Below are positions 11,750 to 20,896 of a stretch of DNA of 64,000 nucleotides, piece after piece; position 1 is the stretch's first letter; every line of letters begins with the position of its first letter. The notes under the pieces were generated by a model, which was not told where the DNA came from, did no database searches, and worked only from the letters and a program-made list of their open reading frames with translations. A program made the position numbers and the translations under genes. The stretch covers positions 122,400,088 to 122,464,087 of the forward strand of contig JALGPY010000002.1 of the NCBI GenBank assembly GCA_023055425.1, given 5' to 3'. This DNA is from Linanthus parryae. Taxonomy: Eukaryota > Streptophyta > Magnoliopsida > Ericales > Polemoniaceae.

Positions 11750-12375
11750 TGTGCACAAGAGATTCCGGCGGGGAGACCTCCGTGTGCACCGTGTGTAGTG
11801 GATCAAGGATCGCACAGGAAGAGTAGGGGTGTGTGTAGGGAGAGAGTAAGTCAGTAGCAATGTCTGAGAGAGAGACAGAGGTTTGGCAGAGCTTCCGCGT
11901 ATGGCAGTGTGTCCTCCTTTGTATGGAAAGGGTTACGATCTATATATACTGGAGAACGTGACCGTTGTAGTGTGGTTAATGCGCCCATTAATGGCGGCTT
12001 AATTAGCTTAACCATAACGGCACGTTCGTCCGAGTATATAGGAACCGTTATAGCACGTGGTGCGCGAATACCGGAACCGTTACGAGGTTGACCGGGTTTG
12101 ACCGGATTGACCGGGTCTAGGGAGCTCGTGCCATAGATCTCTCAAAACAGTTACTAAAGGTCGCGTGCGGGCTTGGCTCGCACGCGACAGGGCTTACTCT
12201 AGCCTCCAAACCACTAAGTCCCTACAAGTCCCGTGCAATGGTATGCGAGGGCTCTGTCTCGCAGCCCCCACATGGATCAGCTCGGTTGGTGATCCAGTGT
12301 GTATGGAGCACAATATGGTGTGCTGGATGGCTGCCACGTGGCCAAGATCTGTCATGTCAGAAAGCAGTATCTACA
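11750..12375 (-). repeat. 3' LTR of Tat-like element
   Basis: The LTR starts TGTGCACAAGAG and ends GCAGTATCTACA on the plus strand. It differs from the 20271-20896 copy at two positions by eye: CACGTTCG against CACATTCG, and GTGCAATGG against GTGCAGTGG. It holds a palindromic TATA motif (about 11940-11949), three TTGACC boxes (12088-12112) and a 10-bp-arm inverted repeat (12160-12188). A rightward promoter here could also serve the antisense ORF. Confidence 0.95.
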
Positions 12376-12392
12376 TTAGCCCCCTTTCTGCG
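12376..12392 (-). promoter_or_regulatory. Polypurine tract of Tat-like element
   Basis: On the minus strand the bases just before the 3' LTR read CAGAAAGGGGGCTAA, a purine-rich tract adjoining TGTAGATACTGC. This is the expected plus-strand primer position and supports both LTR boundary and orientation. Confidence 0.75.
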
Positions 12393-13030
12393 CGTGAAGA
12401 CTCATAGCCGTATAGACTTCCATGCGCGGAAACCAACATACGCGTCGCCGCCACACACCAATTCAAATACGGGTAAGTTCAGCCCCCGTGCGTGTCATTA
12501 TGACCTAAAACCCCTAGAGTCGTGCCGTCTGACCTTTAGGGTTTTAGGCGTGACGTCAGCTTGTCCTGTGATTGCGCGATTCGACGGTGACGGTTGCGAT
12601 TCGACTATCGAAAGGACGCAACCCTTCATTGTTTTGGATAAATACCTTGTATCCCCCATTATTGCAAAGCATCACTTCTTTCTCTTAAAGTGAATGGTAC
12701 CCGGAGATCTTCGAGAGCAGATCCAGATAATCAATCACCAGTTCAGAACTGCAAATCGTATTCTTCAATTGTGCATATCCAAGCAGGCTTCAAGAAAACA
12801 AGGTTGGCCTCGTTTATTTTTGATTTAAAATACCAGTGTTTGCCTTGAACTGCGTTGAATCTGTAAACCCATGGAATTTGTGAAGAGGTTTTGATCTTTG
12901 AACCCGCTTCGTTTTAATCCTTCAACAATATTGGATCTTGCAACTCCCCAATTTCTGAAATTGATACCGGAACTGCTCGTCTTCCTTTGCATAGATCTTG
13001 AATCCCAAAATTCAAACTGAAGTGTGGTAT
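12393..13030 (+). other. Leader region between 3' LTR and aORF
   Basis: There is no convincing protein gene. GC-rich near the LTR, then AT-rich. A possible TATA (GGATAAATACC) lies near 12637-12647, about 420 bases upstream of the aORF ATG. This could be the promoter and 5' untranslated leader of the aORF, and on the other strand it is the last part of the gag-pol transcript's 3' region. Confidence 0.4.
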
Positions 13031-13062
13031 TTCTCCCCCCTTTTTTTTTTGCTCTTTCGCAG
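13031..13062 (+). promoter_or_regulatory. Splice-acceptor-like site before aORF
   Basis: TTCTCCCCCC, a run of ten T and GCTCTTTCGCAG form a polypyrimidine tract with CAG, followed by GA and the ATG at 13065. Possible donors lie in 12800-12845 (for example AACAAGGTTGGC near 12800). This is an inference from sequence only. Confidence 0.45.
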
Positions 13063-13064
13063 GA

Positions 13065-20229: not shown

Positions 20230-20254
20230 GGTTGCTTTTGCCGGTAAGTTTCAC

Positions 20255-20268
20255 GTCGGGTTCACCAA
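20255..20268 (-). promoter_or_regulatory. Candidate primer-binding site of Tat-like element
   Basis: Directly inside the 5' LTR the minus strand reads TTTTGGTGAACCCGACG. It contains TGG, complementary to the CCA end of a tRNA, two to three bases from the LTR edge, as expected for a minus-strand primer site. I could not assign the tRNA with confidence. Confidence 0.6.
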
Positions 20269-20270
20269 AA

Positions 20271-20896
20271 TGTGCACAAGAGATTCCGGCGGGGAGACCT
20301 CCGTGTGCACCGTGTGTAGTGGATCAAGGATCGCACAGGAAGAGTAGGGGTGTGTGTAGGGAGAGAGTAAGTCAGTAGCAATGTCTGAGAGAGAGACAGA
20401 GGTTTGGCAGAGCTTCCGCGTATGGCAGTGTGTCCTCCTTTGTATGGAAAGGGTTACGATCTATATATACTGGAGAACGTGACCGTTGTAGTGTGGTTAA
20501 TGCGCCCATTAATGGCGGCTTAATTAGCTTAACCATAACGGCACATTCGTCCGAGTATATAGGAACCGTTATAGCACGTGGTGCGCGAATACCGGAACCG
20601 TTACGAGGTTGACCGGGTTTGACCGGATTGACCGGGTCTAGGGAGCTCGTGCCATAGATCTCTCAAAACAGTTACTAAAGGTCGCGTGCGGGCTTGGCTC
20701 GCACGCGACAGGGCTTACTCTAGCCTCCAAACCACTAAGTCCCTACAAGTCCCGTGCAGTGGTATGCGAGGGCTCTGTCTCGCAGCCCCCACATGGATCA
20801 GCTCGGTTGGTGATCCAGTGTGTATGGAGCACAATATGGTGTGCTGGATGGCTGCCACGTGGCCAAGATCTGTCATGTCAGAAAGCAGTATCTACA
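20271..20896 (-). repeat. 5' LTR of Tat-like element
   Basis: This is the upstream LTR for minus-strand transcription. A TATA-like GTATATATAG (minus reading) lies at 20461-20470, which would put transcription start roughly 30 bases further left and give R-U5 of about 160 bases. In U3 I see three TTGACC motifs (20609-20614, 20619-20624, 20628-20633), a perfect palindromic G-box GCCACGTGGC (20854-20863), a CACGTG at 20575-20580, and arms GTCGCGTGCG/CGCACGCGAC at 20681-20690 and 20700-20709. Confidence 0.95.

Follow-up and report, generated by a model that had tools for sequence, protein, structure and literature searches.

A recently inserted Ty3/gypsy element of Linanthus parryae, probably of the Tat clade, whose pol deletion is found once in the host assembly

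A retrotransposon that lacks reverse transcriptase (RT) and integrase is unable to insert itself. Close described systems with defective LTR elements are found in rice and among the Retand elements. Dasheng and its partner RIRE2 of rice provide proof that families mobilised in trans exist (PMC5473765). Among the Retand clusters surveyed in PMC11963269, 10 of 63 are given as defective in at least one domain; one cluster without RNase H and integrase is mentioned in the text of that survey and two are found in its Table 1, namely Alopecurus myosuroides 2 and 3b, which keep GAG and protease and comprise 55 and 43 copies, respectively. The same source gives a Retand internal region of 7,380–12,869 bp and an antisense open reading frame (ORF) with TRP28 in 97% of the clusters. 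A dual RNase H has been reported across the Tat family, and the Plant Mobile Domain (PMD) has already been described in gypsy elements (both according to PMC9289625, the latter citing Steinbauerova 2011).

The Ty3/gypsy element analysed here, termed the window copy, lies in minus orientation at positions 11750–20896 of the window, which is the whole 64-kb stretch of DNA under study. Read in the sense of the element, an LTR and a candidate primer-binding site are followed by gag-protease, an in-frame TGA, the start of RT, a joint and the end of integrase; a 56-bp minisatellite, a short ORF on the opposite strand, a polypurine tract and the second LTR complete the order. The individual features are as follows.

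11745–11749, no strand: target-site duplication GCTAC, left copy (read directly)
11750–12375, minus: left LTR, the 3' LTR of the element, 626 bp, 99.68% identical to the right LTR
12376–12389, minus: putative polypurine tract AGAAAGGGGGCTAA in element sense, adjoining the LTR (read directly)
13065–13718, plus: antisense ORF remnant, 217 codons (from the stop-free run, Markov resamples and comparison with the C112 relative)
13525–13528, plus: second deletion joint, with 3,518 bp absent relative to the C112 relative and four shared bases TCCA
15561–16143, no strand: minisatellite, period 56 bp, 10.8 units
16382–16986, minus: C-terminal integrase remnant starting from YNIRQICSTPYYP, GQAE kept (from protein matches, alignment and relatives)
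16984–16986, minus: RT/integrase joint, 2,503-bp deletion, three shared bases AGT
16984–17616, minus: N-terminal RT remnant, broken off immediately ahead of the first catalytic Asp motif
17617–17619, minus: TGA stop separating gag-protease from pol, in frame with both
17617–20229, minus: gag-protease ORF, 870 codons, Retrotrans_gag E=3.7e-7 (Pfam)
20252–20267, minus: candidate primer-binding site TGGTGAACCCGACGTG, separated from the LTR by 3 bp (read directly)
20271–20896, minus: right LTR, the 5' LTR of the element, 626 bp
20897–20901, no strand: target-site duplication GCTAC, right copy (read directly)

The element measures 9.1 kb from LTR to LTR, with an internal length of 7,895 bp. The two LTRs are mismatched at 12024/20545 and 12238/20759, both mismatches being transitions, and at a rate of 1.3e-8 per site per year these 2/626 differences correspond to an insertion age of 0.12 My, with a Poisson range of 0.015–0.44 My. 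The first-pass annotation, made from the sequence of the window, had described two 626-bp LTRs with two differences, a perfect 5-bp duplication GCTAC and, for a rate near 1.3e-8, an insertion roughly 0.1 My ago. All three are borne out by the LTR comparison, by the duplication present at both ends and by the age obtained. A literature search on the candidate primer-binding site gave no match. Arrays resembling the minisatellite were present at the corresponding place in all seven relatives read there.

The gag-protease region contains a stop-free run of 877 codons, compared with a longest run of 331 in 1000 Markov resamples of the region; its ORF of 870 codons agrees with the open residues previously annotated. 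Aspartic protease families scored below the Pfam cut-off in this ORF, and a protein search with gag yielded no match at E≤0.001 among the 7992 candidates sharing most words. The TGA that separates gag-protease from pol is common to six of seven relatives, the seventh (L005) not matching the search string. Damage private to the window copy is ruled out as its origin by these six relatives. As judged from the sequences compared, the TGA is likely a family-wide feature, which suggests read-through or splicing.

Beyond the TGA, the remnant of RT matches Ty3 RT (4ol8, 1.4e-13; 7q5b, 6.7e-13). The integrase remnant, which lies in a different frame, matches 663 of 1047 candidate proteins at E≤1e-3; among the 120 listed, many are from plants, at about 50% identity, and the best match shows 52% identity. 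What the window copy has lost can be read from seven relatives chosen by the RT side (L002–L008), which are 93.5–96.7% identical to it over 1,717 bp. All seven continue with FSFMDGFSGY...YVDD and all seven also have the integrase side. Pfam detected RVT_1 together with two kinds of RNase H (RT_RNaseH and RVT_3) in L003, and the zinc and core domains of integrase in L010, the integrase piece of the same copy. YxDD, RNase H and the zinc and core domains of integrase are gone from the window copy, where RT is joined straight to the integrase end, in accordance with the first-pass placement of this joint at about 16985. The deletion amounts to 2,503 bp relative to five of the seven relatives and to 2,502 and 2,487 bp relative to the other two. 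Since the RT side reads ...TTCAGT/TTCATGG in all seven relatives and the integrase side ...GAGT/ACAATATC in the six printed, the joint shares the bases AGT. A shared joint of 9 bp (CAGTACAAT) had been guessed from protein motifs and was ruled out, as only AGT is shared in the relatives.

Four of these seven relatives (L002, L004, L007/L011 and L005/L015) have a stop or a disrupted frame in the portions of pol that were printed, so that a pol-bearing copy is not necessarily an enzyme-making one. Because a few intact members would suffice, these lesions leave the odds of the readings weighed below unchanged. The open state of the RT and integrase remnants sets a neutral-decay bound of d < ~0.018 (indel ratio 0.1), which fails to separate the readings. 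Two of the copies selected by RT have complete LTR pairs, with zero and three differences and the duplications TCTGC and ACCAC, and in both copies where it was printed the end of the primer-binding site, TCGGGTTCACCA, adjoins the LTR.

The dual RNase H, a marker of Tat according to PMC9289625, is present in the one relative scanned (L003) and falls into the segment deleted from the window copy. By this character of a single relative, the home of the element is likely the Tat clade of Ty3/gypsy. The Retand trait of an antisense ORF between pol and the 3' LTR is found as well (13065–13718; 562 codons in the C112 relative). However, no TRP28 was detected in these 562 codons (Pfam E≤1; PMD and a weak DUF7745 only) or in the window remnant (Pfam E≤10), using a copy of Pfam that may omit PF04195, and four full-size relatives of 15.3–15.4 kb are about 14 kb long inside, outside the range reported for Retand, into which the 7,895 bp of the window copy do fall. 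Due to TRP28 and internal length, the element was not assigned to Retand.

The antisense ORF is itself incomplete. Its remnant lies in a stop-free run of 238 codons, compared with a longest run of 215 in 1000 Markov resamples; after a change of frame, a coiled-coil-like tail extends as far as a stop at 13832. At the same place, the C112 relative has an open stretch of 562 codons (L035:4198–5886, plus), in which Pfam finds the Plant Mobile Domain PF10536 (E 1.7e-26) instead of TRP28. By a residue count made by hand, the window remnant keeps about 28 of 335 matched PMD residues, most of the domain being deleted. The earlier statement that the element keeps its own antisense ORF thus applies to a remnant on the plus strand, the intact ORF having lost 3,518 bp relative to C112. 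A protein search with the antisense ORF gave no match at E≤0.001, and the predicted structure of the remnant has a mean pLDDT of 48.7. Scans of viral contigs and of prokaryote genomes gave no match. At 12637–13064 (plus), a GATAAATA box and a splice-acceptor-like TTTCGCAG occur just before the antisense ATG, an arrangement that suggests a putative promoter and leader intron of the ORF's own.

In 36 further copies, the antisense joint is spanned by none; 25 break as undeleted copies do and 11 are uninformative, ten of them for want of any match and the last, L037, because its match extends from the left only as far as 13540. Among seven near relatives chosen by LTR, six break at 13528 and one gives no match. 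The 36 copies had been picked for an undeleted RT side, so that copies outside this sample may share the antisense deletion, which may also predate the loss in pol. Other copies have losses of their own in this region: in the C1 copy, with 0/626 LTR differences, the antisense region is 1,457 bp longer than in the window copy (compared with 3,518 bp in C112), and in the C101 relative position 12148 is joined to about 13557.

Several further repeats are present in the window. Positions 47884–64000 hold a long array of a 91-bp satellite, broken at 54817–56721 by a 1.9-kb insertion with an A-run end and flanking 16-bp copies of AACGTTAACAATTTGA, which looks like a target-primed insertion of the non-LTR type. 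Three LINE-type elements, two of them head to head, are located at 1514–4522 (minus), 5158–9939 (plus) and 35063–39804 (minus), recognised by matches to DUF4283, endonuclease, RVT_1 and zf-RVT among the frames scanned. A fragment of another Ty3/gypsy-type integrase (Integrase_H2C2, 2.3e-15) lies at 25092–25577 (plus).

In a genome search with the LTR, 40 of 3172 candidates were scored. Twenty-six of these hits form 13 pairs on the same contig and strand, the other 14 being unpaired among the 40. Besides the window copy with 9.1 kb, the pairs measure 15.3–15.4 kb (four), 13.2–13.5 kb (three) and 18.7–28.5 kb (five); none of the 12 other pairs is near the size of the window copy. LTRs of the relatives are 95–99% similar to those of the window copy. 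Seven of the 12 pairs, picked for a size of 13–15.4 kb, were inspected at the pol site, which is undeleted in five, carries another deletion in one (C46_26) and is half covered in one (C38, of the 13-kb size, where L097 does not cover the RT side). L106, from the C46_112 copy of the 13-kb size, gave no match. In the C46_26 copy (L096), 2/626 LTR differences and a CCCTG duplication accompany a pol loss of its own, worked out by hand as about 2.07 kb. Three of the five relatives with an undeleted pol site were dated and show 0–1 LTR differences. For six sibling LTR pairs, four of them among the seven inspected, 0–2 differences were counted, and the duplications are all different (GTAAG, GCTAG, CCTAG, CCCTG, ACTGT and GCCTC). 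Together with the zero and three differences of the copies selected by RT, this indicates that copies still holding the pol segment are of about the same insertion age as the window copy.

The pol joint was searched for throughout the host assembly, which comprises 1.514 Gb in 121 contigs. A 29-base pattern across the joint, allowing up to 3 mismatches, occurs at one place, the window copy, and the reversed control pattern gave 0 matches. As the relatives are 3–5% divergent, one or two mismatches would be expected, and siblings with the joint should therefore have shown up; only a lineage that is masked in this assembly or has been lost could have escaped the search. The undeleted site is repeated in the genome, as seen from the seven copies selected by RT and from five of the near LTR relatives. 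With a 401-bp query across the joint, 40 of 4963 first-look candidates were scored. One match spans the joint, which is the window itself, and the other 39 follow the RT side only (98%). The pol deletion is a private state of one copy in this assembly.

These searches bear directly on the central proposal of the first-pass annotation, in which the deleted form was regarded as a mobile family copied in trans and copies of the joint at other target duplications were to be looked for. Such a family would present several copies with the same joint and different duplications; the joint was found at one place and in 0/39 other scored places, and the proposal is not supported in this assembly. What holds of it is the recent insertion of a Tat-like element that lacks the catalytic core of RT, RNase H and the greater part of integrase; pol-bearing relatives of like LTR exist in the same genome. 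It had also been stated that a unique joint would place the deletion after insertion. The joint was indeed found once in the assembly, but this step is too strong, because a deletion during the copy's own reverse transcription would be unique as well.

As no element inserts itself without RT and integrase, the deletions either followed insertion or were made in a particle that held the enzymes. The single joint and the relatives that keep pol make a one-off defective copy more likely than a spreading deleted family. With a confidence barely above even, we regard the window copy as a doubly deleted one-off within a young Tat-type family, both deletions stemming from template jumps in its last reverse transcription. 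RT would have jumped between AGT sites in pol and, during the same reverse transcription, between TCCA sites in the antisense ORF, while RT, RNase H and integrase of the particle would have come from intact RNAs of pol-bearing family members. The window copy would thus have been copied in trans once and have founded no family. Frequent recombination in the reverse transcription of co-packaged RNAs is described for Arabidopsis Onsen, there as exchange between members and not as deletion (PMC5668417). We lean towards deletion in an enzyme-holding particle because two large losses coincide in a very young copy and other young copies show losses too. In rice, according to PMC1940013, there are 0.095 small deletions for each substitution, averaging 29 bp; measured against these figures, it would seem unusual for slow decay to remove both 2.5 and 3.5 kb in some 0.12 My. 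Alternatively, a copy still bearing pol may have integrated about 0.1 My ago, both segments being lost later by illegitimate recombination between short repeats, a possibility of real but lesser weight. Joints of three and four shared bases suit such recombination after insertion equally well, the pol joint is found once in the assembly, and PMC1940013 ties micro-homology to small deletions and reports very young truncated copies. This course has to accommodate two multi-kb losses although the LTRs are only 2/626 apart; moreover, the losses in the young C46_26 (pol, 2/626) and C1 (antisense, 0/626) copies may tie deletion to copying, but could be post-insertion as well.

A non-autonomous family defined by this very pol deletion, which an autonomous partner would have mobilised in trans again and again, has precedents in Dasheng/RIRE2 (PMC5473765) and in the Retand clusters without RNase H and integrase described in PMC11963269, and the pol-bearing relatives with their similar LTRs could supply the partner; it is nevertheless improbable in view of a joint present once in 1.514 Gb and of 0/12 other LTR pairs of like size. 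Least probable of all is an assembly error by which a longer element was collapsed in part: a high-copy family with tandem repeats is prone to it, but two separate joints with few shared bases, inside one element with a perfect target duplication, make it a very unlikely source. Returning to template jumps in the last reverse transcription, a wider and more tentative proposal is that this Tat family of 15-kb elements is active and loses large internal segments through jumps at microhomologies in the very cycle that inserts a new copy. Each burst would then leave behind singular defective copies whose ends are perfect; two jumps would have occurred together in the window copy, and relatives of equal youth show losses elsewhere, both in pol and in the PMD gene of the antisense strand. 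Should deletion and copying be linked in this way, a family like this one would generate its own defective copies with every burst. A young, neatly bounded element without enzymes can mimic a trans-mobilised family, and a single search of the whole genome for the joint can tell the two apart. Surveys starting from a complete RT, as laid out in PMC11963269, are blind to such copies.

Like Dasheng, the window copy is a defective LTR element accompanied by candidate enzyme-bearing partners with related LTRs; in contrast to Dasheng, described in PMC5473765 as a multi-copy family, its joint was found once. It shares PF10536 with the plant Ty3/gypsy elements of PMC9289625, although it has lost the greater part of the PMD. 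With Retand, as presented in PMC11963269, it shares young age and a long stretch from pol to the 3' LTR in which antisense ORFs and tandem repeats are located, and some Retand clusters likewise lack coding domains. Whereas those clusters are multi-copy and were found via a complete RT, the joint of the window copy was found once and no RT core is left; in Retand the antisense domain is mostly TRP28, in the relative scanned here it is PMD, and the four full-size relatives, at 15.3–15.4 kb, are longer.
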